Below, one piece after another: positions 9,828-32,155 of a DNA stretch of 51,129 bases (position 1 is its first letter; each line of letters starts with the position of its first letter). Origin of the DNA: Pseudofrankia saprophytica (GTDB taxonomy: Bacteria > Actinomycetota > Actinomycetes > Frankiales > Frankiaceae). Below the pieces are notes generated by a model that did no database searches, was not told the DNA's origin, and saw nothing but the letters and a program-made list of their open reading frames with translations. A program made the position numbers and the translations under genes. The DNA is taken from positions 4,283,756-4,334,884 of the forward strand of contig NZ_KI912266.1 in assembly GCF_000235425.2 (NCBI RefSeq), in the 5' to 3' direction.

Positions 9828-11642
9828 ATGGATGCCGTTTCGGATCCCGACTTACCGTCGCCCCAGAACGCTCCCCGCCCCGCCCAGCACGCCGGACTCA
9901 GCCGCCGCACGGCGCTGCGCGGCGCGGCCCTGGCCGGCGGCCTGCTGAGCACCGGCCTGTTCAGTGGCCTCGCGACTCCCGCGTTCGCCGCCACCGAGTA
10001 CGACGTCGTGGTCGTCGGCTGCGGCGCCGCCGGGATGACGGCGGCGCTGCGGGCCGCGAAGCGCGGCCTCAGTGCAGTCGTCATCGAGAAGGCGCCGACC
10101 TTCGGTGGTTCGGCGGCCCGGTCAGGAGCAGGGATCTGGATCCCGAACAACCAGGTGATCCTGGCGGCCGGAGTGCCCGACACTCCGGCGAAGGCGGCGG
10201 CCTATCTGGCGGCGGTGGTCGGCGGCGATGTGCCCGCCGCCCGGCAGAGCGCCTTCCTCAGTAACGGGCCGGCGATGATCACGTTCGTCCTCAACAACAG
10301 CCCGCTGCGTTTCCGCTGGATGGAAGGGTATTCCGACTATTATCCGGAGCTGCCCGGCGGGATGCCGAACGGCCGGTCCCTCGAACCGGCCATGTTCGAC
10401 GGCAACCTGCTGGGCGCGGAGCTCGCCCGGCTCAATCCGTCGTACATTCCGGTGCCGGCCGGCCTGGTGATCTACAGCGCCGACTACAAGTGGCTCAACA
10501 TCGCCGCCGTGAACGCGCGTGGGGTCGCGGTCGCGGCCGAGGCCGCCGCCAGGGGAGTCGCCGCGTCACTGGCCGGCCAGGTGCCGCTCACCATGGGCCA
10601 GGCGCTGGCCGGCGGCCTGCGGGCGGGTCTGGCGGCGGCGAGCGTCCCGGTGCTGCTGAACACCCCGCTCGTGGACCTGGCCGTGGAAGGCGGCCGGGTG
10701 GTCGGCGCGGTCGCCACGCTGAACGGGACCAACACCACGATCCGGGCACGGCGTGGCGTGGTCGTCGCGGCCGGCGGCTTCGAGCACAACGCCGGCATGC
10801 GCGCCGAGTTCCAGGCACAGCCGATCGGCACGAGCTGGACGGTAGGCGCCCGGGAGAACACCGGTGACGGCATCGAGGCGGGGGAGGAGATCGGCGCCGC
10901 GCTGGCGCTGATGGACGACTCCTGGTGGGGGCCGGCGATCCCCCTGCCCGACCAGTCCTACTTCTGCCTGGCCGAGCGCACGCTGCCAGGTTCGATCATC
11001 GTCAACCAGGCCGGGCAGCGGTTCGTCAACGAGGCGGCGCCGTACAGCGACGTCGTCCACGTGATGTACCAACGCAACACGACCTCGCCGTGTATCCCGG
11101 CTTGGATGATCGTCGACCAGAACTACCGGAACCGCTACCTGTTCAGGGACGTGGCGCCGCTGCTGCCGTTCCCGGACTCCTGGTACAACAGCGGCGCGGT
11201 GTTCAAGGACTCGACGATCCAGGGCCTCGCCGCGAAGATCGGCGTCCCTGGCTCCGCGCTGGCGAGCACGGTCAGCCGGTTCAACGGCTTCGCGCTGCGG
11301 GGAAAGGACACCGACTTCGGCCGCGGCAACAGCGCCTACGATCATTACTACACCGATCCCGGCGTGGTCCCGAACTCCTGCCTGGCCGCGCTGTGGCTGC
11401 CGCCGTTCTACGCATTCAAGATCGTTCCAGGTGACCTCGGCACCAAGGGCGGCATGGTGACCGACGCGTCGGCGCGGGTGCTCCGGACGAACGGGTCGGT
11501 CATACCGGGCCTCTATGCCGCGGGCAACTCCAGCGCCGCTGTGATGGGCCACAGCTATACCGGCTCGGGGGCCACGATCGGCCCGGCGATGACCTTCGGC
11601 TACGTCGCCGCCAACCACATCGCCGACAATCCGCCCGCCTGA
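9828..11642 (+). CDS. Tat-exported FAD oxidoreductase, 3-ketosteroid-dehydrogenase-like
   Basis: The ATG at 9828 follows GAAGGGA; the frame is open earlier but the Tat signal fixes this start (604 residues). The signal has SRRTALRG at 25-32, a hydrophobic core and AFA cleavage near residue 54. The FAD-binding motif VVVGCGAAGM follows at 61-70. SARSGAGIWIPNN, the C-terminal AAGNSS and YTGSGATIGPAMTFGY match the FAD_binding_2 family and especially 3-ketosteroid delta-1-dehydrogenases and fumarate-reductase-like enzymes. The role is probably desaturation or reduction of a steroid-like compound outside the membrane. Family members are usually cytoplasmic, so a Tat signal is unusual. Confidence 0.82.
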   Translation: MDAVSDPDLPSPQNAPRPAQHAGLSRRTALRGAALAGGLLSTGLFSGLATPAFAATEYDVVVVGCGAAGMTAALRAAKRGLSAVVIEKAPTFGGSAARSGAGIWIPNNQVILAAGVPDTPAKAAAYLAAVVGGDVPAARQSAFLSNGPAMITFVLNNSPLRFRWMEGYSDYYPELPGGMPNGRSLEPAMFDGNLLGAELARLNPSYIPVPAGLVIYSADYKWLNIAAVNARGVAVAAEAAARGVAASLAGQVPLTMGQALAGGLRAGLAAASVPVLLNTPLVDLAVEGGRVVGAVATLNGTNTTIRARRGVVVAAGGFEHNAGMRAEFQAQPIGTSWTVGARENTGDGIEAGEEIGAALALMDDSWWGPAIPLPDQSYFCLAERTLPGSIIVNQAGQRFVNEAAPYSDVVHVMYQRNTTSPCIPAWMIVDQNYRNRYLFRDVAPLLPFPDSWYNSGAVFKDSTIQGLAAKIGVPGSALASTVSRFNGFALRGKDTDFGRGNSAYDHYYTDPGVVPNSCLAALWLPPFYAFKIVPGDLGTKGGMVTDASARVLRTNGSVIPGLYAAGNSSAAVMGHSYTGSGATIGPAMTFGYVAANHIADNPPA

Positions 11643-11677
11643 CCGGGCGGATATCTGGTCGTCGGTGTCCGGACCAG

Positions 11678-11714
11678 CGCGGACCGGGGGGCTGTTGGCG
11701 CACCCCGGTCCGCG
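11678..11714 (+). terminator. Strong hairpin after the flavoprotein gene
   Basis: A perfect 12-bp inverted repeat (CGCGGACCGGGG / CCCCGGTCCGCG) with a 13-nt loop lies 36 bp after the stop at 11642. No U-tract follows. Confidence 0.65.
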
Positions 11715-11816
11715 GCGGATGCACCTCAGCTTTTCGTTTGTTCGTCATCTCTCGGATGCCGGTTGTGGAGGAGGGCGCGCCAGTCTGGGGCCCCCAAACC
11801 TCGACAAGGAGCATCC

Positions 11817-13835
11817 GTGGTCGACATCGATCGCCGCAGGTTCCTGAGCCTGGCCGGCGGGACGGCCGCTCTGGTCGCACTCGACCAGAGCATCGCGCGC
11901 GCCGCCGCGATCCCCGCCAACCGCCGGACCGGAACCATCAAGGACGTCGAGCACATCGTCGTCCTGATGCAGGAGAACCGGTCCTTCGATCACTACTTCG
12001 GCACGCTGCGCGGCGTCCGGGGCTTCGGCGAGCCGCACCCGGTGGTCCTGCCCGGAGGCAAGCCGGTCTGGAACCAGCCCAACGGCACAGGCGAGCTGCT
12101 CCCGTTCCACCCGGACGCCGCCGACCTCGGCGCGGCCTTCCTCACCGGCCTCCCGCACAGCTGGACCGACGGCCACCAGGCCCTCAACAACGGCGTCTAC
12201 AACCAGTGGGTGCCGGCCAAGGGCACGGCCACCATGGCTTACCTGCAGCGCCAGGACGCGGCCTTCCACTACGCGCTCGCGGACGCCTTCACCGTCTGTG
12301 ACGCGTACTACTGCTCGTTCGTCGGCAACACCGACCCGAACCGCTACTACATGTGGACGGGCTGGACCGGCAACGACGGCAAGGACGGCGGCCCGGTCCT
12401 CTACAACGACGAGCTCGGCTACGACTGGAAGACCTACCCGGAGCGCCTTGAGGCCGCCAAGATCAGCTGGAAGGTCTACCAGGACGAGGGCACCGGACTC
12501 GACGCCGCCGGCTCCTGGGGCTGGACCAGCGACCCCTACATCGGCAACTACGGCGACACGTCGCTGCTCTACTTCAACACCTACCGCAACGCCCAGCCTG
12601 GCAGCCCGCTCTACGAGAAGGCGCGCGTCGGCACCAAGGCCGCGGCAGGCCAGGACTACTTCGAGCTGCTGCGCGCCGACGTCAAGGCGAACAAGCTCCC
12701 CAGCATCAGCTACGTCACCGCGCCCGAGGCGTTCAGCGAGCACTCGAACTGGCCGTCGAACTACGGCGCCTGGTACATCGCCAAGGTCCTCGACGCGCTG
12801 ACCAGCAACCCCGACGTGTGGAGCAAGACCGTCCTGCTCGTCACCTACGACGAGAACGACGGCTTCTTCGACCACCTCGTCCCGCCGCACCCGAACAGCG
12901 AGCTGATTCCCGGCGCGAGCACCGTCAAGACGGACAACGAGGTCTACCGCGGCCCGCTCGGCAACGGCCACTACGGCCTCGGCCCGCGGGTCCCGATGTA
13001 CGTCGTCTCGCCGTGGAGCGTCGGCGGCTGGGTGGCCTCGGAGACGTTCGACCACACGTCGATCATCCAGTTCATGGAGAAGCGCTTCGGCGTCAAGGAG
13101 CCAAACATCACCCCGTGGCGGCGGGCGATCTGTGGCGACCTGACCTCCGCCTTCGACTTCTCGAAGGACAGGACTGACAAGCCGAAGCTCCCCGACACCA
13201 GCTCGTGGGCGCCGAAGGACCGCGACCGGCACCCCACCTACAACCCGGCCGTGCCGGCGACCGGCACCATGCCGAAGCAGGAGCGGGGGCAGAAGCCGGC
13301 CCGGCCGACGCCGTACGACCTCTCCGTCCACGAGACCTCGAAGGTGGGCGCTGCCATCCTCGCGGTCGAGTTCGAGAACGACGGCCGCCTCGGTGCGCAC
13401 TTCCAGGCCCGGCTGCTCGCGCCCGTCGGCGTGCCGCACAGCTACACCGTCGGCTCGGGCGCCAAGCTCAAGGCGTCGTGGCCGGTCGCCGGTGACTATG
13501 ACGTCCATATCCACGGCCCCAACGGCTTCTTCCGCCGCTTCGCGGGCACCGTGGGCAAGGACAAGGTCTACGTCGAAGTGCGCCAGTTGGCCAACACCCC
13601 TGTCCTGCAGGTGTCCATCGACGCGCCGAAGGACGTCACCGTCGACGTGCGCAGCGCCTACGACAAGCAGGGCGGGAGCGGCACCGGGGACCGCAAGGTC
13701 AAGATTGACACCAAGGACTTCGGTAACTGGTACGACGTCACTGTGTCCGTGTCGGGCACGAAGTGGGTGCGTACCTTCGCGGGGCATCTGGAGGACGGCA
13801 AGCCGTCGGTGAGCGACCCGCAGCTGGGCGCCTGA
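11817..13835 (+). CDS. Tat-exported phospholipase C / phosphoesterase
   Basis: The GTG at 11817 sits 5 nt after AAGGAG and gives 672 residues. The Tat motif DRRRFLSLAGG is at residues 5-15. The phosphoesterase signature ENRSFDHYFGTLRG (residues 53-66) and TYDENDGFFDHLVPP define the bacterial phospholipase C / AcpA family. The C-terminal 180 residues look like the repeated DUF756 beta-domain that follows such catalytic domains (YDVHIHGPNGFFRRF). The protein hydrolyses phospholipid head groups or phosphate esters after export, and may help scavenge phosphate. It is transcribed alone and ends at a hairpin at 13931. Confidence 0.92.
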   Translation: MVDIDRRRFLSLAGGTAALVALDQSIARAAAIPANRRTGTIKDVEHIVVLMQENRSFDHYFGTLRGVRGFGEPHPVVLPGGKPVWNQPNGTGELLPFHPDAADLGAAFLTGLPHSWTDGHQALNNGVYNQWVPAKGTATMAYLQRQDAAFHYALADAFTVCDAYYCSFVGNTDPNRYYMWTGWTGNDGKDGGPVLYNDELGYDWKTYPERLEAAKISWKVYQDEGTGLDAAGSWGWTSDPYIGNYGDTSLLYFNTYRNAQPGSPLYEKARVGTKAAAGQDYFELLRADVKANKLPSISYVTAPEAFSEHSNWPSNYGAWYIAKVLDALTSNPDVWSKTVLLVTYDENDGFFDHLVPPHPNSELIPGASTVKTDNEVYRGPLGNGHYGLGPRVPMYVVSPWSVGGWVASETFDHTSIIQFMEKRFGVKEPNITPWRRAICGDLTSAFDFSKDRTDKPKLPDTSSWAPKDRDRHPTYNPAVPATGTMPKQERGQKPARPTPYDLSVHETSKVGAAILAVEFENDGRLGAHFQARLLAPVGVPHSYTVGSGAKLKASWPVAGDYDVHIHGPNGFFRRFAGTVGKDKVYVEVRQLANTPVLQVSIDAPKDVTVDVRSAYDKQGGSGTGDRKVKIDTKDFGNWYDVTVSVSGTKWVRTFAGHLEDGKPSVSDPQLGA

Positions 13836-13930
13836 ACCGGGATGGCCGAAACCCAGTAGCCGAACCGGGTAGCTCTGAGGCCAGGGGTGGTTGGACCCGG
13901 CAACCGGGAACTCGGTAGCCAGGACAGCGG

Positions 13931-13966
13931 TCGTGGGGTCCGCGTGCGTACGCGCGGGCCCCACGA
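13931..13966. terminator. Long hairpin between phospholipase gene and tRNA array
   Basis: TCGTGGGG-T-CCGCG (13931-13944) pairs with CGCGG-G-CCCCACGA (13953-13966) around an 8-nt loop. It lies 96 bp after the phospholipase stop and 56 bp beyond the last tRNA on the other strand, so it could serve both convergent transcripts. Confidence 0.6.
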
Positions 13967-14021
13967 CACGTGGCACGGGATATCTCCACAGCGGACACGA
14001 CTCGGCTGGCCATGACTGACC

Positions 14022-14109
14022 TGGCGGAGGGTGGAGGATTCGAACCTCCGCGGGCAGAACCCGACCTGCGCTTAGCGGGCGCGTCCCTTACCGACTCGGG
14101 CAACCCTCC
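14022..14109 (-). tRNA. tRNA-Ser(GCT), C33 variant
   Basis: Acceptor GGAGGGT pairs with ACCCTCC; G73 and CCA are encoded. There is a long variable arm, as expected for Ser, and a canonical T-loop TTCGAAT. The anticodon loop is CCGCTAA: position 33 is C rather than the near-invariant T. The lower anticodon-stem pair 27-43 is mismatched. It is the last gene of the array in transcription order. Confidence 0.85.
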
Positions 14110-14122
14110 ATCGTTCGGCGTC

Positions 14123-14199
14123 TGGTACCCACGGAGGGAATCGAACCCCCAACATTCCGGCTCTGAACCGGATGCCTCTTCCAGTTGGGCTACGTGGGC
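14123..14199 (-). tRNA. tRNA with Leu anticodon CAG on a class I body
   Basis: Acceptor GCCCACG pairs with CGTGGGT (G1-T72 wobble); A73 and CCA are encoded. The anticodon stem TCCGG/CCGGA holds loop TTCAGAG, anticodon CAG. The variable loop is only about 5 nt, whereas bacterial tRNA-Leu has a long variable arm. The D-arm (TAGCCCAA...GAGGC) matches the other Leu-anticodon gene at 15399. Confidence 0.75.
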
Positions 14200-14247
14200 G
14201 TGCACCCGGCGCGCGCCGCCGGCGGCGACATCGGTCCGAGTCTTCGG

Positions 14248-14327
14248 TGCTGGCGGAGAGATTTGAACTCCCACAGCGCAAGCGGCGGCTTTACGGGCCG
14301 TTGGGCTCACCAGTGCCCAGCGCCAGC
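14248..14327 (-). tRNA. tRNA-Tyr(GTA), C33 variant
   Basis: Acceptor GCTGGCG pairs perfectly with CGCCAGC; A73 is followed by CCG, so CCA is not encoded. It is class II with an extended variable arm, as bacterial tRNA-Tyr should be. The anticodon loop is CCGTAAA, with C at position 33. The T-loop is TTCAAAT. Confidence 0.82.
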
Positions 14328-14387
14328 GAGATCCCGCGGAGACATATGTGTCCCACGTGACCGCGGGGTGGAAACCCCCCGGCCTCG

Positions 14388-14460
14388 TCCGCGCAGTAGG
14401 ACTCGAACCTACAACCTCAGCCGTCGGAGGGCTGCGTTCTCTCCGTTGAACTATGCGCGG
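14388..14460 (-). tRNA. tRNA-Arg(CCG)
   Basis: Acceptor CCGCGCA/TGCGCGG, D stem GTTC/GAAC, anticodon stem CAGCC/GGCTG and T stem GTAGG/CCTAC are all perfectly paired. The loop CTCCGAC keeps T33. CCA is not encoded. It is one of the most regular members of the array. Confidence 0.88.
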
Positions 14461-14493
14461 TCGGTCGCGCCTGGCCGTCGTGGCCGGCGCGCG

Positions 14494-14566
14494 TGCCCAG
14501 GGAGGGGTTCGAACCCCCGACCTTCTGCTTGTAAGGCAGCCGCTCTCCCTGCTGAGCTACCCGGGC
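14494..14566 (-). tRNA. tRNA-Val(TAC)
   Basis: Acceptor GCCCGGG/CCTGGGC has one G-T wobble; A73; CCA is not encoded. The anticodon loop CTTACAA keeps T33. The T-arm is canonical (GGGGG TTCGAAC CCCTC, one G-T wobble). Pair 27-43 is mismatched. Confidence 0.85.
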
Positions 14567-14570
14567 GTCG

Positions 14571-14643
14571 CGCTGGTGAGGGGACTCGAACCCCCGCTGT
14601 CCTCCCTGACAAGGAGGTGCCCTGGCCGCTAGGCGACACCAGC
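14571..14643 (-). tRNA. tRNA-Asp(GTC)
   Basis: Acceptor GCTGGTG pairs with CACCAGC; G73 agrees with Asp identity. The anticodon stem CCTCC/GGAGG holds loop TTGTCAG. The T-loop is TTCGAGT. CCA is not encoded. Only four bases separate it from each neighbouring tRNA. Confidence 0.87.
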
Positions 14644-14647
14644 ATCG

Positions 14648-14719
14648 TGGAACTGGGGAGACTCGAACTCCCGACCTACGGTCTGCCGAACCGCCGCTCT
14701 ACCGCTGAGCTACAGCCCC
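14648..14719 (-). tRNA. tRNA-Ala(GGC), C33 variant
   Basis: Acceptor GGGGCTG pairs with CAGTTCC, including the G3-T70 wobble that is the main alanine identity element. The anticodon loop is TCGGCAG: C at position 33 in place of T. The T-loop is TTCGAGT. CCA is not encoded. Confidence 0.83.
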
Positions 14720-14724
14720 AAAAA

Positions 14725-14802
14725 TGGGGTGACCGAAGGGACTCGAACCCTCTCGTACCAGGTTCACAACCTGGTGCCTCGACCACTTCGGCATCGGTCA
14801 CC
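14725..14802 (-). tRNA. tRNA-His(GTG)
   Basis: The gene encodes the extra 5' G(-1) opposite C73, the hallmark of tRNA-His, and CCA. The anticodon stem CCAGG/CCTGG holds loop TTGTGAA. The T-loop is TTCGAGT. Positions 8-9 read AT instead of the usual TA or TG. Confidence 0.87.
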
Positions 14803-14812
14803 ATGCGCCGAG

Positions 14813-14885
14813 TGGAGCCTCGGGGATTCGAACCCCGTGCCTTCTCCGTGCGAGGGAGACGCTCTTCCTAATGAGCTAAGACCCC
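14813..14885 (-). tRNA. tRNA-Ala(CGC)
   Basis: Acceptor GGGGTCT pairs with AGGCTCC and again carries the G3-T70 alanine identity wobble. The anticodon stem TCTCC/GGAGA holds loop CTCGCAC with T33. The T-arm is canonical. CCA is not encoded. Confidence 0.86.
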
Positions 14886-14907
14886 ATGTGCTCCGGACCT
14901 GGACCGG

Positions 14908-14954
14908 CCGGCATGTGGAAACTCGAGCTTCCAGCGCTCTTCCAGCGCTGCCGG
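14908..14954 (-). other. tRNA-like element without a D-arm (Phe GAA-like loop)
   Basis: The minus strand folds as CCGGCA / TGCCGG enclosing two hairpins: AGCGC-TGGAAGA-GCGCT, an anticodon-like arm with GAA centred but G at position 33, and a T-arm-like TGGAA/TTCCA with loop GCTCGAGT. There is no D-arm. The first hairpin arises from a direct duplication of TTCCAGCGCT, which argues for caution. It could be a decayed tRNA or a chance structure. Confidence 0.35.
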
Positions 14955-14971
14955 TCGGACCTCTCGGTCCG

Positions 14972-15050
14972 TGGTAGCGGGGGTGGGATTCGAACCCACG
15001 ATTCCGGGATTATGAGCCCCGTGAGGACGGCCGAACTCCTCTACCCCGCC
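14972..15050 (-). tRNA. Initiator-like tRNA-Met(CAT)
   Basis: The anticodon loop CTCATAA sits on a G-rich stem (CGGGG/TCCCG). The D stem has A11-T24 (GAGG/CCTC), a feature of bacterial initiators, and the 3' end CCCCCGCTACCA is that of actinobacterial initiator tRNAs. Base 1 is G rather than the unpaired C of an initiator, giving a G1-T72 wobble. CCA is encoded. Confidence 0.83.
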
Positions 15051-15051
15051 G

Positions 15052-15124
15052 TAGCCGTGGAAGGCCTCGAACCTTCGCCATGCCGCTTAAGAGGCGGCTG
15101 CTCTGCCGACTGAGCTACACGGGC
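15052..15124 (-). tRNA. tRNA-Lys(CTT)
   Basis: The anticodon stem GCCGC/GCGGC holds loop CTCTTAA. D-arm GCTC/GAGC and T-arm GAAGG/CCTTC are regular. The acceptor GCCCGTG/CACGGCT has a C2-C71 mismatch and a terminal G-T. A single base separates its A73 from the 5' end of the initiator-like tRNA. CCA is not encoded. Confidence 0.82.
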
Positions 15125-15210
15125 AGGTACTACGTAGGCAGGTACTACAAGGTGGCGGTGCCAAATGCCGGTCCGTGCCCGCCATGTCGCGGGCCATGCG
15201 GGCCGGGTCG

Positions 15211-15297
15211 CGGAAGACGGAGGACTCGAACCCCAACGGCCTGCGCCGCCCATCCGTTTTCGGGACGGTGGCCACCCCGACGGTGACTTCATCTTCC
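15211..15297 (-). tRNA. tRNA-Ser(CGA), C33 variant, degenerate
   Basis: An 87-nt class II tRNA. Acceptor GGAAGAT pairs with GTCTTCC; G73. The anticodon stem CCGT/ACGG holds loop CCCGAAA with C33. The T-loop TTCGAGT is canonical but pair 49-65 is mismatched, base 8 is G instead of T, and the acceptor-to-D linker has an extra base. CCA is not encoded. Confidence 0.7.
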
Positions 15298-15319
15298 AGA
15301 AGGCCGCGGCGCGGCCCAG

Positions 15320-15394
15320 TGCTCCGTGCGGGACTTGAACCCGCAGTCTCCGGATTGAGAGTCCGGCGAGTTGACCTTCTTACTCCAACGGAGC
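15320..15394 (-). tRNA. tRNA-Glu(CTC)
   Basis: Acceptor GCTCCGT/ACGGAGC, anticodon stem CCGGA/TCCGG with loop CTCTCAA, and T-arm GCGGG TTCAAGT CCCGC are all well paired. D stem GAGT/ACTC. CCA is not encoded. Confidence 0.87.
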
Positions 15395-15398
15395 ATAG

Positions 15399-15472
15399 TG
15401 CCGCTCGGAGGAGTCGAACCTCCACTGGCCGCGATCTCGGCGCGGTGCCTCTGCCCGTTGGGCTAGAGCGGC
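15399..15472 (-). tRNA. tRNA with Leu anticodon GAG on a class I body, C33 variant
   Basis: Acceptor GCCGCTC pairs with GAGCGGC. The anticodon stem CCGCG/CGCGG holds loop CCGAGAT: anticodon GAG, C33 and T38. The variable loop is short (CCAGT), unlike true tRNA-Leu. The D-arm is nearly the same as in the CAG gene at 14123, so the two probably share ancestry. CCA is not encoded. Confidence 0.75.
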
Positions 15473-15573
15473 ATGGTGGCCCGTGGGCTGGTACCTAGCC
15501 CTTAACCCTGCCTGCCGGTAGCGAGCGGGTGCAGGGGCGCCGCGGGCCGCGGCGCGTGGGAAAGCAGTCACAG

Positions 15574-15647
15574 TGGTCGCCCGAGGACTTGAACCTCGCG
15601 CCCCCCGCGTATCAGACGGGTGCTCTGACCTGATGAGCTAGACGACC
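15574..15647 (-). tRNA. tRNA-Ile(GAT)
   Basis: Acceptor GGTCGTC pairs with GGCGACC (one wobble). The anticodon stem CCCGT/GCGGG holds loop CTGATAC with T33. T-arm CGAGG TTCAAGT CCTCG. CCA is not encoded. The 101-bp gap on its 3' side contains only GC-rich hairpins. Confidence 0.85.
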
Positions 15648-15654
15648 GGGCGAG

Positions 15655-15725
15655 CTGAGGTGAAAGGACTCGAACCTCTATTTCCGGGTCCAGGGCCCGG
15701 CGGCCTGCCATTGGCCGACACCCCA
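15655..15725 (-). tRNA. tRNA-Gln(CTG), C33 variant
   Basis: T1-A72 and G73, typical of tRNA-Gln, are present: TGGGGTG pairs with CACCTCA. The anticodon stem CCGGG/CCCGG holds loop CCCTGGA with C33. The T-loop is TTCGAGT. CCA is not encoded. Confidence 0.83.
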
Positions 15726-15739
15726 TCACGGGTACCGCG

Positions 15740-15811
15740 TGGGTCCGGAAGGTACCGAGCCTTCCTCTCCCGCTTTTCAGGCGGGCGCTGATCCCTCTCA
15801 GCTACAGACCC
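15740..15811 (-). tRNA. tRNA-Phe(GAA) with altered T-loop
   Basis: Acceptor GGGTCTG/CGGACCC and anticodon stem CCCGC/GCGGG with loop CTGAAAA are normal. The T-loop reads CTCGGTA, so T54 is C and the near-invariant A58 is G; both positions normally form the T54-A58 pair that shapes the elbow. CCA is not encoded. Confidence 0.8.
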
Positions 15812-15812
15812 C

Positions 15813-15888
15813 TGGAGTGGGCGGCCGGGCTTGAACCGGCGACCTTCACCATGGCAAGGTGATGTGCTGCCAACTGCACCACGCCCAC
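15813..15888 (-). tRNA. tRNA-Gly(GCC)
   Basis: Acceptor GTGGGCG/CGCCCAC, discriminator T73 and encoded CCA. The anticodon stem TCACC/GGTGA holds loop TTGCCAT with T33. One base separates it from tRNA-Phe. A fully regular gene. Confidence 0.9.
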
Positions 15889-15899
15889 ACGAGAAACCG

Positions 15900-15971
15900 A
15901 GCCCAAGGGCGGATTCGAACCGCCGATCTTCCCCGTACCGGGGGGACGCACTGCCACTGTGCTACAAGGGC
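15900..15971 (-). tRNA. tRNA-Thr(GGT), C33 variant with acceptor mismatches
   Basis: The anticodon stem TCCCC/GGGGA holds loop CCGGTAC with C33. The T-arm GGCGG TTCGAAT CCGCC is perfect. The acceptor GCCCTTG against CTTGGGC has two adjacent T-T mismatches (positions 5-6). CCA is not encoded. Confidence 0.75.
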
Positions 15972-16039
15972 ACGCCATGCCACCGGGAGTACCCGGAGGA
16001 GCCGCGAAAAGCGTACCTTCGCGTCTCCTCCAGGCCCGG

Positions 16040-16112
16040 AGCCGCCGGGCGGGCTCGAACCGCCGACCTGTCGCTTACGAGGCGACTGCTCTACCAACTG
16101 AGCTACGGAGGC
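16040..16112 (-). tRNA. tRNA-Thr(CGT)
   Basis: The anticodon stem GTCGC/GCGAC holds loop CTCGTAA with T33. D-arm and T-arm are regular. The acceptor GCCTCCG/CGGCGGC has one T-C mismatch at 4-69. The 3' end reads TCCG, one base away from an encoded CCA. Confidence 0.82.
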
Positions 16113-16132
16113 ATACCGCGGGGGTTCCCGAG

Positions 16133-16203
16133 AGCGGTCACGGAGAATCGAACTCCGGTCTGATGCTTGGAAGGCACTCGCTCTGCCACTGAGCTACGAC
16201 CGC
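16133..16203 (-). tRNA. tRNA-Gly(TCC)
   Basis: Acceptor GCGGTCG/TGACCGC with one wobble; T73 as in tRNA-Gly. Anticodon loop CTTCCAA with T33; pair 27-43 is mismatched. T-loop TTCGATT. CCA is not encoded. Confidence 0.84.
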
Positions 16204-16227
16204 GTGCGGCGGGACCGGTCGCCCCGC

Positions 16228-16303
16228 TGGTACCCCTCACAGGAGTCGAACCTGTGGCCTCCCGGGTCGCGGCCGGGTGCTCTGTCCTCTGAGCTAGAGG
16301 GGT
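16228..16303 (-). tRNA. tRNA-Arg(GCG), C33 variant
   Basis: Acceptor ACCCCTC/GAGGGGT, A73 and encoded CCA. The anticodon stem CCCGG/CCGGG holds loop CCGCGAC: anticodon GCG with C33. Bacteria normally read CGC with the inosine-modified ACG tRNA, so a GCG anticodon is rare. Confidence 0.82.
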
Positions 16304-16357
16304 GTGCCGCCGGGCGCCGGAGTCACCGTGATGGTGGCCTCGGGCGCGCCGGCGTCG

Positions 16358-16429
16358 TCGGGACGGCCGGATTCGAACCGACGTGGGCCTGATCCCAAAT
16401 CAGGTGGGCGACCTCTACCCCACGTCCCG
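16358..16429 (-). tRNA. tRNA-Pro(TGG)
   Basis: Acceptor CGGGACG/CGTCCCG with C1-G72 and A73, as expected for bacterial tRNA-Pro. The anticodon stem CCTGA/TCAGG holds loop TTTGGGA. T-loop TTCGAAT. CCA is not encoded. Confidence 0.86.
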
Positions 16430-16436
16430 TCTCGGC

Positions 16437-16491
16437 GGCTGTGGGGCAGGATGCCCCGCAGCCACCGGTGTGCCAGGGATGGCGCCCTGGC
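16437..16491. other. Two hairpins in the widest gap of the tRNA array
   Basis: GGCTG-T-GGGGC (16437-16447) pairs with GCCCC-G-CAGCC (16453-16463) around a 5-nt loop, and GCCAGGG (16472-16478) pairs with CCCTGGC (16485-16491). They lie between the Pro and Trp genes and may guide processing or pausing of the primary transcript. No tRNA is recognisable in 16430-16551. Confidence 0.45.
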
Positions 16492-16551
16492 GTGTCATGT
16501 CCGCTGTGGAGTTGTCAATCATGCGAGCGCTTCCCGAAAAGGGCGCGCGAG

Positions 16552-16623
16552 CAGGGACGGAGGGACTTGAACCCCCAACGAACGGTTTTGGAGACCGCCG
16601 CTCTACCTTTGAGCTACATCCCT
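16552..16623 (-). tRNA. tRNA-Trp(CCA)
   Basis: Acceptor AGGGATG/CGTCCCT with A1-T72 and G73, matching bacterial tRNA-Trp identity. The anticodon stem GCGGT/ACCGT holds loop CTCCAAA. T-loop TTCAAGT. CCA is not encoded. It is the first gene of the array in transcription order. Confidence 0.87.
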
Positions 16624-16651
16624 AGGGGATAATCCGCCGGTGGCGATTCCC

Positions 16652-16697
16652 ATGGAAAAGAGAAGACCGCCTCGCGGGTGGATTCCCGGGGCGGTCT
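16652..16697 (-). terminator. Rho-independent terminator just upstream of the tRNA array
   Basis: On the minus strand AGACCGCC (16697-16690) pairs with GGCGGTCT (16671-16664), followed by the U-rich run TCTCTTTT. This is one of the few classical terminators in the window. It lies only about 30 bp before the first tRNA, so it insulates the array from upstream transcription or acts as a leader attenuator. A GATTAT hexamer just before the Trp gene could be the array's -10 element. The remainder of 16698-17108 has a degenerate run of GTGCTG and GTGCCG words at about 16880-16970 and no supported gene. Confidence 0.65.
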
Positions 16698-17108
16698 GAG
16701 TCCAGTGACCTGTCAGGTCAGGACGTCAGCCCCGGGCTTGCGGCGGTGAGCCACATCGGCGCGGCCAGATATGAGAGCCGACCTCGGAAGATATCGGCCT
16801 GAGGGTGCAGGGGCTCGCAGGTCGGTCGCATGCCACTGGCCTCCTCTGGTCGTCTCCGCCACTCGGCGTCGCGCTGCTGGGTGCTGTGCTGTGTCGTGCC
16901 GTTCGGTACCGTGCCGCCGTGCGTCGCTGCTCTGTTCTGTGCCGTGCTGTTCGGTGTTCTGGGCTCCGTTCGAGCGCCTGGAACAAGAATGCCCCGGCGC
17001 CCGCGTCATCTCAAGGGATTTTCCGCGAGAGCCCGCCCGGACGGCGAGCGGCGTCCTCGGCCGGGCGGCGGCGACCGAAGGCCGGGACCCGAGCCGGGGA
17101 CTTGTGGG

Positions 17109-17669
17109 TCAGCGCGCGGACGCGGGCGGCGTCGGACCGTCAAGACCGGCGACGAGGCGCCCCAGTGCTGGGAGAGCGGCGCGGAGGCGGCCCTGGTCGA
17201 CGTCGGTGAGCCGCGCGAGCACCTCGACGACGGCGGAGTGCAGATCTCGCTCGACGCCCGCCACCTCGGCCTGGGCCGTCTGGGACAGGTAAAGGCGGGC
17301 GACGCGGCGGTCGTGTGGGTCACCGCGCCGCTCGATCAGGCCGGCGCCGACCAGGTCCGTGATCAGGGTGCTCAGATTGTGCGGGCGCATCGACAGTGCC
17401 TCGGCGGCATGCCGCACCGACATGCCCGGCTGGCCGGCGAGCAGGCGCAGCACCTGGATGTGGCGCGGGCGCAGCTTCTCGAACGCCGCCGGGGTCGCGG
17501 TCGGCTTCTCGGCACCGACGACCCGCCACAGCAGCCTCGCGGCCTCGACGATCTCGACGGCGAGCTCTTCGGTGCGCCCGTCACGGGCCGCCGTGACCGA
17601 CAGGACGGTCTCGCGCGCGACCCGGTACCGAGCGTTCGATGCGCCTGGGCGTGCGGTCGAGGCGGTCAT
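17109..17669 (-). CDS. MarR-family transcriptional regulator
   Basis: The 186-residue product from ATG 17669 has a clear winged helix: RPRHIQVLRLLAGQPGMSV, HAAEALSMRPHNLSTLITDLV (recognition helix) and the wing GLIERRGDPHDRRVARLYLS. The frame stays open back to a GTG at 17954, but that extension is Pro/Arg-rich and its third-position GC falls clearly below that of the domain, so I prefer the internal start. MarR proteins are ligand- or oxidation-responsive dimers. The inverted repeat at 17988-18011 may be the autoregulatory site. It precedes the tRNA array on the same strand but is separated from it by the terminator at 16664-16697. Confidence 0.82.
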   Translation of the reverse strand: MTASTARPGASNARYRVARETVLSVTAARDGRTEELAVEIVEAARLLWRVVGAEKPTATPAAFEKLRPRHIQVLRLLAGQPGMSVRHAAEALSMRPHNLSTLITDLVGAGLIERRGDPHDRRVARLYLSQTAQAEVAGVERDLHSAVVEVLARLTDVDQGRLRAALPALGRLVAGLDGPTPPASAR

Positions 17670-17987
17670 ACCCGTCGCCCGCGGTCGAGCCGGCTCGGGC
17701 TCGGGGCCGCGGGGCGCCGGGACCCGGACGGGCTGGGCGCGCCGGACGGGTTGGGCGTGCCGAACGGGGGAAATCTCCGCGTGCGGAGGCGTCGGTTGGT
17801 CGTCGACCGGCCGGTGCTCGGGCGGATGGCCGGTAGGGCCGGTGGCGTCGGAGCCGGGACGAGAAGCAGCCGCGGGCGGATGGGCGGGCTGGGGGTGGCG
17901 ACGGGTGGGAAGGTGGACCGCTCGCCCCGGAGAGGTTCCTTGTGGAGTCCGCACATCACGCAGCCTGTTCTACCGGAGTTTCCTCTC

Positions 17988-18011
17988 CGTTCAGTCCAAG
18001 TTTCCTGAACG
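17988..18011. promoter_or_regulatory. Inverted repeat upstream of MarR gene, candidate operator
   Basis: CGTTCAG (17988-17994) is mirrored perfectly by CTGAACG (18005-18011) with a 10-nt AT-richer spacer. It lies in the divergent region between the MarR gene and uppP, in a locally AT-richer patch. The rest of 17670-18360 has no supported gene. Confidence 0.4.
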
Positions 18012-18360
18012 TACCGAGAGTCATAGGTCCTATCGGTCAGACATCCACCACCGGCCGCGACCCCACCATCGACGGACCATCGACGGCGAGAGTCGGTGCC
18101 GCGTCTGAAGGCCCGCCTCAGACGGTAGCCGCCGACGGCGCCAGGCGCGATGCCGGGCGGCCGGATCCCGATGACGGCCGCGGCCGGCCCGCGGGCGGAG
18201 GCTCGTCCGGCGGTCCTGTCCGAGGACAGACTAGCTCTGCCGGGCCAACAGGTCCGGAAAAAGACTCATCGCCGGCAAAGCGGACCGGCCGGTGTGCCCG
18301 CTGTGGGCGGGCATGGGCTGACTGCCGGCAGCGCGATGACGTCGGCTACTGTCAGGCCTC

Positions 18361-18537
18361 GTGACCAGGTACGGAACTCCTCCGGGCGGTCAGCCCGAGA
18401 GCCGTGGCGCCCTTGCCGTAGACGCCACCCACGTCGGCACCCCCGGAGACGCCTCCGCCCTGCCCGCCCGCGGGGTGACCACCCGCGAGGCCGGCCGCCT
18501 GGGCGCCGTCCGGCACTCCCGTGTGGCGGCCGCGTGA
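18361..18537 (+). CDS. Possible 58-residue ORF overlapping the uppP start
   Basis: A GTG at 18361 opens a 58-codon frame whose TGA overlaps the uppP start codon (GTGA). The predicted peptide (VTRYGTPPGGQPESRG...) resembles nothing I know. Overlapping stop/start codons suggest translational coupling, but the ribosome site is weak and the ORF may be fortuitous. Confidence 0.3.
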   Translation: MTRYGTPPGGQPESRGALAVDATHVGTPGDASALPARGVTTREAGRLGAVRHSRVAAA

Positions 18538-19424
18538 ACTGGTTCCAGGGTGGTGTCCTCGGCCTGGTCCAGGGACTCACCGAGTTCCTGCCGGTCTCGT
18601 CCAGCGCGCACCTGCGCATCCTGCCGGCACTGGTGGGTTGGCCGGACCCGGGCGCCGCGTTCACGGCCGTCAGCCAGATCGGCACCGAGACCGCCGTCAT
18701 CCTCTATTTCCGCAAGGACATCGCCAAGATCGTCTCCAGCTGGGCTCGGTCCCTGGTGAACCCCAAGTACCGCGGATCCCAGGAAGCCCGGATGGGCTGG
18801 CTGATCATCATCGGGTCGATCCCGATCTCCATCCTTGGCGTGACGCTCAAGGACTCCATCGAGGGCCCGTTCCGGGACCTGCGGCTGATCGCGACGACGC
18901 TCATCGTGCTCGGCCTCGTCCTCGGCGCCGCGGACTGGTACGCCGCGCAGGCGGGCAGGCAGGGCCGGCATGCGTTCCCACGCCGGCGCAAGACCGTCGA
19001 GGACCTGACCACCCGGGACGGTGTGCTCTACGGGCTTGCCCAGTCGCTCGCGCTGATACCCGGTGTGTCCCGCTCGGGCGCGACGGTCAGCGGTGGCCTT
19101 TTCCTCGGCTACACCCGGGAAGCGGCGGCCCGCTACTCGTTCCTGCTCGCGATCCCGGCCGTGCTCGCCTCCGGGTTGTTCGAGCTGAAGTCGGTCGCGG
19201 ACGGCTCCGACGGCGACGTGGCCTGGGGGCCGACGATCCTCGCCACCGTGATCGCCTTCGTCGTCGGCTACTCGGCGATCGCCTGGTTCCTGCGGTACAT
19301 CTCGACGAAGAGCTTCGCCCCGTTCGTGATCTACCGCGTCGCCCTCGGCGTGTTCCTGCTGGCCCTGATCGCCTCCGGCCACCTCGACGCCCATGCCGGC
19401 GCGGACGCGGCGACCTCCGGCTGA
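18534..19424 (+). CDS. uppP: Undecaprenyl-diphosphatase
   Basis: The GTG at 18534 gives 296 residues, close to the usual length. It removes a phosphate from undecaprenyl pyrophosphate, recycling the lipid carrier for peptidoglycan and related polymers, and its loss sensitises cells to bacitracin. Family signatures are present: LVQGLTEFLPVSSSAHL (residues 11-27, with the conserved Gln/Glu, Ser cluster and His) and PGVSRSGAT (about 176-184, with the essential Arg). Several membrane segments follow (for example WLIIIGSIPISILGV and VGYSAIAWFL). The upstream in-frame extension lacks the family pattern. It stands alone apart from the possible small overlapping ORF. Confidence 0.95.
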   Translation: MNWFQGGVLGLVQGLTEFLPVSSSAHLRILPALVGWPDPGAAFTAVSQIGTETAVILYFRKDIAKIVSSWARSLVNPKYRGSQEARMGWLIIIGSIPISILGVTLKDSIEGPFRDLRLIATTLIVLGLVLGAADWYAAQAGRQGRHAFPRRRKTVEDLTTRDGVLYGLAQSLALIPGVSRSGATVSGGLFLGYTREAAARYSFLLAIPAVLASGLFELKSVADGSDGDVAWGPTILATVIAFVVGYSAIAWFLRYISTKSFAPFVIYRVALGVFLLALIASGHLDAHAGADAATSG

Positions 19425-21475: not shown

Positions 21476-23659
<2,184 letters not shown>

Positions 23660-23805
23660 CCCCCCGCCGCACGACGCGACCCGGCCCCACCCCAGTGACG
23701 TCGACCGAAGTGAGGAACTCCACGGAGGTTATATCGCGCTAACGCCACCATCCGGGCACGACCCGTGTCCGCTGGACGACCTGCCGGCGCCGCGACCGGC
23801 GGCGG
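23660..23805. repeat. Intergenic duplication, copy 1 (matches 28278-28425)
   Basis: This spacer aligns along its length with 28278-28425. Shared blocks include ccccccgccgcacgacgcga, the promoter-like ggaggttatatcgc and cgacctgccggc. On the minus strand a GATATAA element lies about 75 bp before K1, as it does before K3. It is the footprint of a segmental duplication. Confidence 0.85.
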
Positions 23806-26061
23806 TCAGCGCAGGCGCCACAGGCGGACGGTGTGGTCGTGGCTGGCGGAGGCCAGAGTCGCGCCGTCGCGCGAGAAGGCGACCGAGTAGACCCAGGGAT
23901 CGGCGCCGGTGTGGCCGATGAGCTGGCCGCGGGAGTGCGGCCGGCCCCGGTCCGTGACATCCCAGAGGGTGACCGTGCCCGTGCGGTCGCCGCTGGCGAG
24001 AGTGCCGCCGTCGGGGGAGAAGGACAGGGCGAGGACGGAGTCGTGGTCGGCCGCGCCCGTCCTGCCAGTGCCGCCGGCTGCGCGCACCGGCCCGCCCAGG
24101 GCGGTCGGGCTGGTGGGCCGGCGCACGTCCCAGAGCCGGATGTCGCCGTCGGAGCCCGCGCTCGCCACCGTCGCGCCGTCCGGCGAGAACACGACCGACC
24201 GCACGTCGCCGGTGTGCCTCACGGGCGTCTCGGCGAGCAGCCTGGACACCCGGGGGTGGCTGACGTCCCAGAGGCGGACCGCGCCGTCGCCGCCACCGGT
24301 CGCGAGGGTGGCGCCGTCGGGAGAGAACGCCAGCGTCCACACCGCGCCGGTCTTCGGGCCGCGCAGCGTGCGCACGGGCACGGGGTACATCCGGTCGCTC
24401 AGGTCCCAGAGGCGGATGGTGCCGTCGGCGCCGGCCGTGGCCAGGACGTTCTGGCCGGGGTCGAAGGCGACCGCCTTGATGGCGTCCCGCTGGCCGCCCG
24501 ACAGGTCGTCGGTGAGGAGAACGGGACGCGTCCGGTCCGTGACGTCCCACAGGCCGCACCAGCCATGGTCGCCCGCGACCGCGAGGGTCGTCCCGTCGGG
24601 GGAGAACACCGCGGCGAGCGCGGCGCCGTCCCCGGGACGCAGCGAGCCGTCCTCGTGGCGGGTGATCGGCTGGCCCAGCGGCGTGGGGCGCTTCGGATCG
24701 GCGAGATCCCAGAGCCGGACGGTGCCTTCGGCGCTCGCGGTGGCGAGCGTCCCGCTGTCCGGGGAGAACGCGGCCTCGTAGACGCCGGCGGTGAACGCCG
24801 TCAGCGGCCGGCCGAGGAACTGGGGCCGCGCCGGGGCGGTGGCGGTGGGGGTCGCGGTGGTCGATGGCCGAGTCCCGGCGTCCTCCCGCCCGCCCGACCC
24901 GAGACCCGTGGTGAGCGCCGCGGTGAGCGGGACGGCGACCGCCGCCGTGACGACCGCCGCCGCCAGCGCGGTGAGCGGGACCGTCAGCCACCCCCGCCGC
25001 GCCGCGTCGTCGGCAGGGCCTCCCAGGTGCCGCGGCGGACGTGCCCGGTCGAGCGCACGTCGCCACCACGGCCCGGGCAGTACCGCCGTGGAGTCGAGGC
25101 TCCTGCCCGCCCACCCGTACCCGCCGCCCGTGGCCCCTTGGTCGGCGACGTCGACGGGCGCGGGGTCGACGGGCGCGGGGTCGGCGCCGGCGCCGCCGGC
25201 GAGCAGCAGGCTCAACAGCTCCGCCGCGGTGGGCCTGTTCTCGGGGTGCTTGTCCATGGCCCACTCGACGAGCGGGCGCAGCGCGCGAGGCAGGCGGTCG
25301 AGGTGGTCGGGCGGGTCACGCTCGATCCGCAGCAGCGTCTGGGGAGTCGACGCCGCCAGGAAGGGGGGCTCGCCGGACGCGGCGTAGACGAGGACCGCGC
25401 CCCAGGCATGGACGTCCCCGGCCTCGCCGACCCGCTCGTTGCGCGCCTGCTCGGGGGCCATGTACGCGGGCGTGCCGATGATCCGCTGGCTGAGCAGCGT
25501 CGTGGCGTCCGGCGGGCGGGCGATGCCGAAGTCGATGACCCGCGTGCCCTTCGCCGACAGCATGACGTTGCGCGGGCTCAGGTCCCGGTGGACGACACCG
25601 GCGGCGTGGATCGCGACCAGCGCCGCCGCGATCTCGATGGCCAGGCGTTCCAGCTCCGCCGCCCGCAGGGGCCGCGGCTCGGCCCGGCCGTATGGCTCAG
25701 CGTGGCCGTACGGCTCGACCCGCTCGGACAGCGTCGGGCCGTCGATGTACTCCATGACCAGGTACGGGCTGGGGCCGTCCATGTTCACGTCGAGGACCTC
25801 GGCGGAACAGAACCGGGGAACCCGCCGCGCGGCCGCCGTCTCGCGCGCGAAACGCCGCCGGAAGTCGGGCAGCTCGGCCAGGTGGGCGTGGATGATCTTC
25901 ACGGCGACATGCCGGCTCGGGTCACCTTCCGCGGCCCCGGGGCGGTCGGCCAGGTAGACGGTGCCCATTCCGCCGGTCCCGAGCCGTCGGAGCAGCCGGT
26001 ACGGCCCGATCGCGACGGGTCCGCCGTCAGGGCGCTCGTCCACGGCTCGCGGCGTGATCAT
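23806..26061 (-). CDS. Membrane kinase with WD40 propeller and atypical catalytic loop (copy K2)
   Basis: 751 residues from ATG 26061, which overlaps the K3 stop (ATGA). Gly loop RRLGTGGMGTVY, Lys55, DFG Asp177. The catalytic loop is HRDLSPRN (159-165): the Lys conserved in Ser/Thr kinases is Ser162, and the RN ending recalls tyrosine kinases. Residues about 116-129 hold a repeated PYGHAEP / PYGRAEP insertion. After a Trp-containing linker there is one membrane segment (about 380-405), then seven WD40 blades (VRLWDLAD, CGLWDVTD, IRLWDLSD, VRLWDVSH, IRLWDVRR, VTLWDVTD, VRLWRLR). Translational coupling suggests it is made together with K3. The most divergent intact copy. Confidence 0.92.
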   Translation of the reverse strand: MITPRAVDERPDGGPVAIGPYRLLRRLGTGGMGTVYLADRPGAAEGDPSRHVAVKIIHAHLAELPDFRRRFARETAAARRVPRFCSAEVLDVNMDGPSPYLVMEYIDGPTLSERVEPYGHAEPYGRAEPRPLRAAELERLAIEIAAALVAIHAAGVVHRDLSPRNVMLSAKGTRVIDFGIARPPDATTLLSQRIIGTPAYMAPEQARNERVGEAGDVHAWGAVLVYAASGEPPFLAASTPQTLLRIERDPPDHLDRLPRALRPLVEWAMDKHPENRPTAAELLSLLLAGGAGADPAPVDPAPVDVADQGATGGGYGWAGRSLDSTAVLPGPWWRRALDRARPPRHLGGPADDAARRGWLTVPLTALAAAVVTAAVAVPLTAALTTGLGSGGREDAGTRPSTTATPTATAPARPQFLGRPLTAFTAGVYEAAFSPDSGTLATASAEGTVRLWDLADPKRPTPLGQPITRHEDGSLRPGDGAALAAVFSPDGTTLAVAGDHGWCGLWDVTDRTRPVLLTDDLSGGQRDAIKAVAFDPGQNVLATAGADGTIRLWDLSDRMYPVPVRTLRGPKTGAVWTLAFSPDGATLATGGGDGAVRLWDVSHPRVSRLLAETPVRHTGDVRSVVFSPDGATVASAGSDGDIRLWDVRRPTSPTALGGPVRAAGGTGRTGAADHDSVLALSFSPDGGTLASGDRTGTVTLWDVTDRGRPHSRGQLIGHTGADPWVYSVAFSRDGATLASASHDHTVRLWRLR

Positions 26062-28277: not shown

Positions 28278-28425
28278 CCCCCCGCCGCACGACGCGACCC
28301 GGACCCCATCCCGACGACCCGCGCCGGAGCGAGGAACTCCGCAGGAGGTTATATCGCCCTAAGGCCACCATCCGAGCACGACCCGTGTCCGCTGCACGAC
28401 CTGCCGGCACCGCGATCGGCGGCGG
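28278..28425. repeat. Intergenic duplication, copy 2 (matches 23660-23805)
   Basis: Near-identical to the spacer before K1, including the minus-strand GCGATATAACCTCC block at about 28345-28360. The copied unit therefore included promoter DNA as well as the kinase gene. Confidence 0.85.
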
Positions 28426-30675: not shown

Positions 30676-30856
30676 GGCATCCTCCGGCCCGAACGACTGG
30701 CCGTGTCCGTCTTCCCGACAGGCCTGGGAGATCTTCTTCGCGGACCTTATATGCCGCTTCGCTGGCACACGCGGCCGAGTAACCGTTACGACAGGCGCAC
30801 GCCCCTCGCGGTGGATCGCCGGCGCGGGAAGCGGGCCGGCGTGGGCGCGGACAGGC

Positions 30857-31996: not shown

Positions 31997-32155
31997 TCCT
32001 ACCCGAGAGCTCGGCGCCTTCCCGGCTCGCCGCGGTCCGCGTTACGAATCTCCCCGTAGGGCAGGCTATCCCGCGGACCACCCCGGAGCCGGACCACCCC
32101 GGAGCCGGACCACCCCGGAGCCGGGCCAGCCCGCCGGTCGCCGGGTCCGGCGGGG

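Follow-up and report, generated by a model that had tools for sequence, protein, structure and literature searches.

Frequent C33 in a long, conserved tRNA array of Pseudofrankia saprophytica and in the Leu-UAA tRNA of its family

Within a stretch of 51,129 nucleotides of the genome of the actinobacterium Pseudofrankia saprophytica (herein referred to as the window; NCBI RefSeq assembly GCF_000235425.2, contig NZ_KI912266.1, positions 4,283,756 to 4,334,884, numbered here from its first letter) lies a dense array of 24 tRNA genes, eight of which encode cytidine instead of uridine at position 33 of the anticodon loop (C33 and U33, respectively). U33 makes the U-turn and is treated as a rule for elongator tRNAs. 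What is unusual here is that so many apparently sound tRNAs carry C33, and that C33 is found as well in a native tRNA for which there seems to be no substitute. We hypothesize that the array is a long backup set kept by selection, in which position 33 may have been relaxed from U to either pyrimidine and whose C33 tRNAs would still decode, a reading that we consider somewhat better than an even prospect on the comparative sequence data laid out below.

Position 33 in the array and in its genome

ARAGORN called 23 tRNA genes on the minus strand at 14022–16623, of which 22 scored above the Rfam tRNA cut-off in a scan of the window and all 23 in a search of the genome; the 24th gene, Ser-CGA at 15211–15297, went unseen by ARAGORN and was read by eye. 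With 24 genes in 2.6 kb, the locus is a long array in the usual sense (at least 20 genes, densely packed). An earlier note on this DNA, drawn from the sequence alone, had placed the array at 14022–16303; its start agrees with ours, whereas the genes continue to 16623 with Pro-UGG and Trp-CCA. The same note had counted C33 in eight of the 24 genes, seven of them with CC before the anticodon, and we find exactly the eight genes that it named, Ala-GGC (loop UCGGCAG) being the exception to CC. The genes are given below with the state of position 33 in four homologous arrays, this one and those of three relatives.

14022..16623, minus strand: long tRNA array of 24 genes (23 from ARAGORN plus Ser-CGA; ARAGORN, Rfam and inspection by eye)
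14022..14109, minus strand: tRNA-Ser(GCU), loop CCGCUAA, C33; C33 in all four arrays
14246..14327, minus strand: tRNA-Tyr(GUA), loop CCGUAAA, C33; U33 in the other three arrays
14647..14719, minus strand: tRNA-Ala(GGC), C33, shared with P. asymbiotica; U33 in the two remaining arrays
15211..15297, minus strand: tRNA-Ser(CGA)-like, loop CCCGAAA, C33 (by eye); C33 in three of four arrays, U33 in F. nepalensis
15398..15472, minus strand: tRNA-Leu(GAG) with a short variable loop, anticodon loop CCGAGAU, C33; C33 in all four arrays
15654..15725, minus strand: tRNA-Gln(CUG), loop CCCUGGA, C33, shared with F. nepalensis; U33 in the two remaining arrays
15899..15971, minus strand: tRNA-Thr(GGU), loop CCGGUAC, C33; U33 in the other three arrays
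16228..16303, minus strand: tRNA-Arg(GCG), loop CCGCGAC, C33; C33 in all four arrays
16357..16623, minus strand: tRNA-Pro(UGG) and tRNA-Trp(CCA), the transcriptionally first genes of the array, U33 (ARAGORN; beyond the end given in the earlier note)

The host genome (9.98 Mb in two contigs) holds 47 further tRNAs outside the array according to Rfam searches, one of them a weak candidate for Arg-GCG (L081, 31.3 bits). Native tRNAs duplicate 22 of the 23 ARAGORN anticodons of the array and also Ser-CGA (native gene L071), such that the array is redundant and supplies a second tRNA for most amino acids; L081 aside, Arg-GCG is the only ARAGORN gene of the array without a native duplicate. U33 is encoded by 46 of the 47 native genes, and the excess of C33 in the array (8/24 vs. 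1/46 in the rest of the genome, L081 omitted) is significant (Fisher's exact test, p = 0.0005). Position 33 also stands out within the array: it departs from the expected base in 7 of the 23 ARAGORN genes, compared with 4 of 184 instances over eight other near-invariant positions (p = 2e-5), where the U8 and A14 counts rest on mechanical numbering and may err by a gene or two. The frequencies of the codons read by C33 and by U33 array tRNAs do not differ (Mann–Whitney p = 0.65).

The stems of these tRNAs, described earlier as otherwise intact, are mostly so: 8 of 391 checked pairs are nonstandard, although four of these fall within C33 genes (27–43 of Ser, 27–43 of Tyr, and 5–68 and 6–67 of Thr-GGT), and Ser-CGA has an unusual D arm and, by eye, about four clean anticodon-stem pairs.

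Homologous arrays and the turnover of C33

Homologous arrays are present in Pseudofrankia asymbiotica NRRL B-16386, Frankia nepalensis CN7 and Pseudofrankia sp. BMG5.36, and hence, with the window, in four of the eight genomes of the genus; at a threshold of E 1e-25 none was found elsewhere among 35 genomes of the family (the order-level search covered the identical 35 genomes). One further genome of the family, G022, shows weak matches to the array and a six-gene tRNA cluster. The flank at 11000–13990 is found at E 1e-50 in the same four array-bearing genomes only. At the level of the class, 76 of 393 genomes gave matches, those outside Frankiaceae spanning about one tRNA each, mostly Trp, at loci that were not examined for arrays. 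The array of F. nepalensis (L083) additionally carries Asn-GUU, Arg-CCU and Arg-UCU and is inverted relative to the neighboring homologous DNA.

The tRNA genes are far better conserved than the DNA between them. Identity between the window and P. asymbiotica is 96.1% in tRNAs and 76.2% in spacers; the corresponding values are 96.2% and 75.9% for BMG5.36, which forms the closest pair with P. asymbiotica, and 91.6% and 61.9% for F. nepalensis. Over the four arrays, 346 of 391 stem pairs are invariant, 14 have changed on both sides with pairing kept, 20 have changed on one side with pairing kept, and 11 vary with some sequence left unpaired. Anticodons have changed at 1 of 69 positions in 23 genes (Leu-GAG of BMG5.36), as counted from alignment columns and not from ortholog sets matched by anticodon, which would be circular. 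The discriminator base is among those of the native tRNAs for the same amino acid in all 23 genes (the native Arg and Lys ones vary). Taken together, the contrast between tRNA and spacer identity, the compensatory changes in stems, the near-invariant anticodons and the fitting discriminator bases argue that most genes of the array are kept by selection as tRNAs.

These data bear directly on plain decay, in which the array would be drifting toward pseudogenes with C33 as one lesion among others. The genes are indeed redundant, C33 has been gained or lost between close relatives, some pairs are nonstandard and Ser-CGA is odd; moreover, Gly-UCC and Leu-GAG of BMG5.36 are interrupted by insertions of roughly 115 and 60 bases (L084, 2615–2802 and 3560–3694), the latter gene having the loop CCGCGAU. 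However, tRNA pseudogenes should be no better conserved than spacers and should drift in anticodons and stems, and here tRNAs far outlast spacers, stems change in compensation and anticodons hardly change at all. None of the four arrays has a purine at position 33, and departures at other near-invariant positions of the window array are rare. We therefore agree with the earlier judgment that random decay is a poor explanation, given the conserved tRNA bodies, anticodons and discriminator bases, and regard it as unlikely.

The earlier note had also asked whether C33 is conserved in the same genes of relatives. This is so for Ser-GCT, Arg-GCG and Leu-GAG, which have C33 in all four arrays; the others vary, and Glu has C33 in F. 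nepalensis only. Position 33 varies in 5 of 23 gene sets (6 of 24 with Ser-CGA), always between U and C. This exceeds the variation at the pooled positions U8, U54 and U55 (6/24 vs. 2/69, one misparsed Trp gene excluded; p = 0.003), but certain ordinary positions of stems and loops are no less open to change than 33, for example 27, 31, 32 and 43 (four each), 67, 68 and 72 (five each) and 59 (9 of 23). The pattern over the four arrays, which are related and not independent and which offer few independent changes, matches neither a fixed C33 class nor pseudogene noise. Position 33 appears instead to be open to either pyrimidine, and there is a hint of something beyond that. GC-biased mutation as the only cause of C33 was considered and rejected, since 14 of the 26 changes specific to the window branch run from G/C to A/T.

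C33 in the Leu-UAA tRNA of Frankiaceae and in other arrays

The lone native C33 tRNA of P. saprophytica is Leu-UAA, which has a short variable loop and the anticodon loop CCUAAAA. Its sequence finds a match in 32 of the 35 Frankiaceae genomes, and CCUAAAA is present in all 30 of these that were read (matches in G022 and G030 were unread; G021, G023 and G034 gave no match, two of them being less than 90% complete). In a second genome (G010, a single contig of 5,433,628 bases), 44 of 45 tRNAs have U33 and Leu-UAA alone has C33; its remaining leucine anticodons are UAG, CAG, GAG and CAA, leaving Leu-UAA as the only UUA reader found. Leu-UAA is likewise the sole UUA reader among the tRNAs found in P. 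saprophytica. In both cases the absence of a second reader rests on Rfam searches, a pattern search for leucine tRNAs with a long arm having been uninformative (it was badly spaced and matched less often than its control). UUA is a rare codon, with 20 occurrences in 67,367 codons, spread over 17 of 124 crudely called open reading frames (ORFs), and 11 of the 20 lie past codon 60. Three Leu-UAA relatives (L176–L178), which belong to two further families of the same class, have U33.

Because the only UUA reader carries C33 in every genome read, Frankiaceae seem tolerant of C33, which probably functions in their tRNAs. If no RNA editing intervenes, the family would appear to use a C33 tRNA and to conserve it strongly. 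Bacterial tRNA-Leu usually has a long variable arm; the UUR-reading leucine tRNAs of P. saprophytica (L080 at G000:C1:2346125 and L079 at G000:C2:603790) and of G010 (L707 and L708) have none, and the two leucine tRNAs of the array share this short-armed type.

Post-transcriptional editing of C33 to U, or some other modification, acting on the array tRNAs and on Leu-UAA would explain why a single family has C33 in numerous array genes and also in a housekeeping tRNA that does not vary. We know of no bacterial editing of C33 to U, the remaining native tRNAs keep U33 in their DNA, and Pfam scans of 18 window proteins revealed no deaminase, although no search for one was made in the genome as a whole; we hold this explanation to be very unlikely. 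Broader than editing is the proposal that Frankiaceae own a real class of C33 tRNAs, in which the ribosome, a modification or editing makes C33 fully usable and U33 dispensable. The sole UUA reader, and as much as a third of a stress set, would thereby have been free to change, perhaps gaining resistance to nucleases that need U33. To us this is a doubtful but serious possibility.

The earlier note had further raised decoys as a meaning of C33; such tRNAs would absorb nucleases or donate aminoacyl groups and would not decode. C33 could conceivably lower decoding while folding and charging stay in place. We found nothing in support of this idea: no partner gene was recognized among the window proteins scanned (18 with Pfam, 10 against PADLOC), two thirds of the array genes retain U33, and C33 in the sole UUA reader argues against abolished decoding. 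Decoys are in our estimation the least probable of the explanations considered, and extremely unlikely.

To place these frequencies in context, position 33 was read in further tRNAs, which outside Frankiaceae form a sample and not a survey. Other actinobacterial and actinophage loci have C33 in 14 of 255 tRNAs and G33 in three (one misparse removed; L154, with one tRNA, and genes without a readable loop left out), a rate well exceeded by the window (8/24; p = 0.0001). The 14 C33 genes have four or five of five anticodon-stem pairs. An Arg-GCG gene that ARAGORN reported with C33 in a plasmid array of Mycobacterium (L146) was rejected, since the sequence reads as Leu-CAA and had been misparsed. 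Among 67 tRNAs of four other bacterial plasmid loci, one has C33. Array tRNAs with G33 include Gln-UUG of Salinispora fenicalii (L159), Gln-CUG of Miltoncostaea oceani (L147) and Ala-UGC of G022 (L086).

A U33 pattern was used to fetch viral contigs, in which C33 is present in 14 and A33 in two of 482 non-anchor tRNAs. Departures number 16–25 of 482 at positions 53, 54, 55, 56 and 58, eight at 61 and still more at 8 and 14, for which the numbering is uncertain; position 33 does not stand out in this sample, unlike in the window. Pattern searches of IMG/VR returned a total of 48 stretches for a purine at 33 and at least 120 for C33. All four actinobacterial or actinophage loci that hold Val-GAC have it with C33, as do 50 IMG/VR stretches; Val-GAC with U33 is found in at least 120 IMG/VR stretches, and the least biased viral sample has C33 in two of six Val-GAC genes. 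Among IMG/VR loci, C33 is seemingly concentrated in Val-GAC and Ile-GAT (23 of 28 and 38 of 77 genes read, respectively), a view biased by the fetch with a C33 pattern.

Explanations for C33 and comparison with known systems

Nuclease escape is the strongest rival, because position 33 abuts the site at which the anticodon nuclease PrrC cleaves, 3′ of U33 (PMC2610378), and because phage tRNAs show anticodon-loop changes at nuclease targets (PMC10264068). C33 would on this account have been selected as protection from nucleases that cut beside U33 or recognize it, as proposed for phage tRNAs. Several of our observations fit: position 33 is singled out among the near-invariant positions of the array, C33 reappears at low frequency in arrays of phages and plasmids, with Val-GAC standing out, and 13 of 22 array loops are unlike every native loop with the same anticodon, as expected of phage-type evasion. 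C33 is among these differences, and in Ser-GCT and Tyr nothing else distinguishes the loop from its native counterpart. Against this, the set of C33 genes differs among four closely related arrays, although a nuclease common to all should have left the same genes with C33; viral contigs show no particular excess of departures at position 33 (16/482 vs. 16–25/482 elsewhere), where Val-GAC with U33 is at least as common as with C33; and housekeeping Leu-UAA has C33 too. No defense nuclease was recognized among 10 window proteins compared with PADLOC, which returned WYL regulators only, or among the 18 scanned with Pfam, the other ORFs being unscanned. Loop changes in one Shigella phage have, moreover, been judged unlikely to serve nuclease escape (PMC12482277). 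Nuclease escape is in our view a realistic but lesser possibility.

We favor instead the backup array outlined at the outset. The array would be a supernumerary second set of tRNAs, redundant with native genes and selected to fold and to be charged, in which the constraint at position 33 may have relaxed from strict U to a pyrimidine, such that switches between U and C were accepted repeatedly. Ribosomes probably still make use of its C33 tRNAs, if perhaps less efficiently, which may suit a reserve that, judging from known arrays, would matter only when the normal tRNA pool is damaged or blocked.

Four points weigh against this explanation. Two of the four T-to-C changes on the window branch fall at position 33, a hint of more than relaxation (Fisher p about 0.02, computed with 16 U33 sites although 17 would be more accurate). 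The two interrupted genes of BMG5.36 indicate that single genes can be lost. A scan for promoters and terminators was uninformative, with no promoter-like site on the array strand. Finally, U33C in yeast tRNA-Gln gave a mutant phenotype, which the authors of that study connect with poor decoding or charging (PMC3664417), and full efficiency of C33 is hence not to be assumed.

A single-copy C33 tRNA, conserved throughout a family and obliged to read UUA, would provide, together with the U33/C33 pairs in near-identical genes of sister species, a natural test of the purpose of U33 and of whether spare sets trade decoding for protection. Among the matches listed in our literature search (titles and beginnings of abstracts, with subscription journals mostly missing), none took up C33 in the tRNA arrays of bacteria or in Leu-UAA of Frankia.

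The array lies between two genes on the opposite strand:

11763..13835, plus strand: phospholipase C type phosphoesterase gene (PF04185, PF05506)
18150..19424, plus strand: BacA family gene (PF02673), whose product we take to be undecaprenyl-diphosphatase

About 1.4 kb upstream of the array (16640–18100) is noncoding and present in two relatives at about 81% identity, and this stretch between the array and the BacA gene is possibly a long regulatory region. An ORF of 392 amino acids within it (16830–18008) was considered as a protein partner and rejected as not coding, given frame-breaking gaps among relatives and no excess of third-position changes. Pfam scans of 18 window proteins revealed no mobile gene. 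Ser/Thr kinase genes stand in a row at 21476–33275 on the minus strand, with WD40 propellers in three of the four scanned.

Natural elongator tRNAs without U33 have a eukaryotic precedent in tRNA-Ser(CAG) of Candida, which has G33 and is tied to codon reassignment; it shares the missing U33 with the tRNAs described here and differs in having a purine at that position. As a locus, the array resembles the trn operon of Anabaena PCC 7120, in which 20-odd redundant tRNA genes likewise stand in one run beside a full housekeeping set; the Anabaena operon is silent, repressed by TrcR and induced by translation stress (PMC10272220). Of 35 tRNAs with readable loops in two other arrays from cyanobacterial plasmids (L144 and L145), one has C33. 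The tRNA array units of Mycobacterium and its phages and plasmids are also actinobacterial, comprise at least 20 genes and have redundant anticodons, but often lie on plasmids or phages with HNH genes, whereas the present array lies on a large contig between phospholipase and BacA genes (PMC5966550, PMC12803027); C33 is found in 1 of 80 tRNAs of three mycobacterial plasmid arrays (one misparse removed). Phage tRNAs with altered anticodon loops are, like the array, supernumerary and different in their loops from those of the host, although their changes are tied to targets of VapC and other known nucleases (PMC10264068), while here the change is at position 33 and no nuclease has been identified. 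Lastly, the Leu-UAA tRNA of Frankiaceae and bldA of Streptomyces are alike in being the sole reader of UUA (PMC4255298, PMC2000904), and its short variable loop and C33 would set the Frankiaceae tRNA apart.

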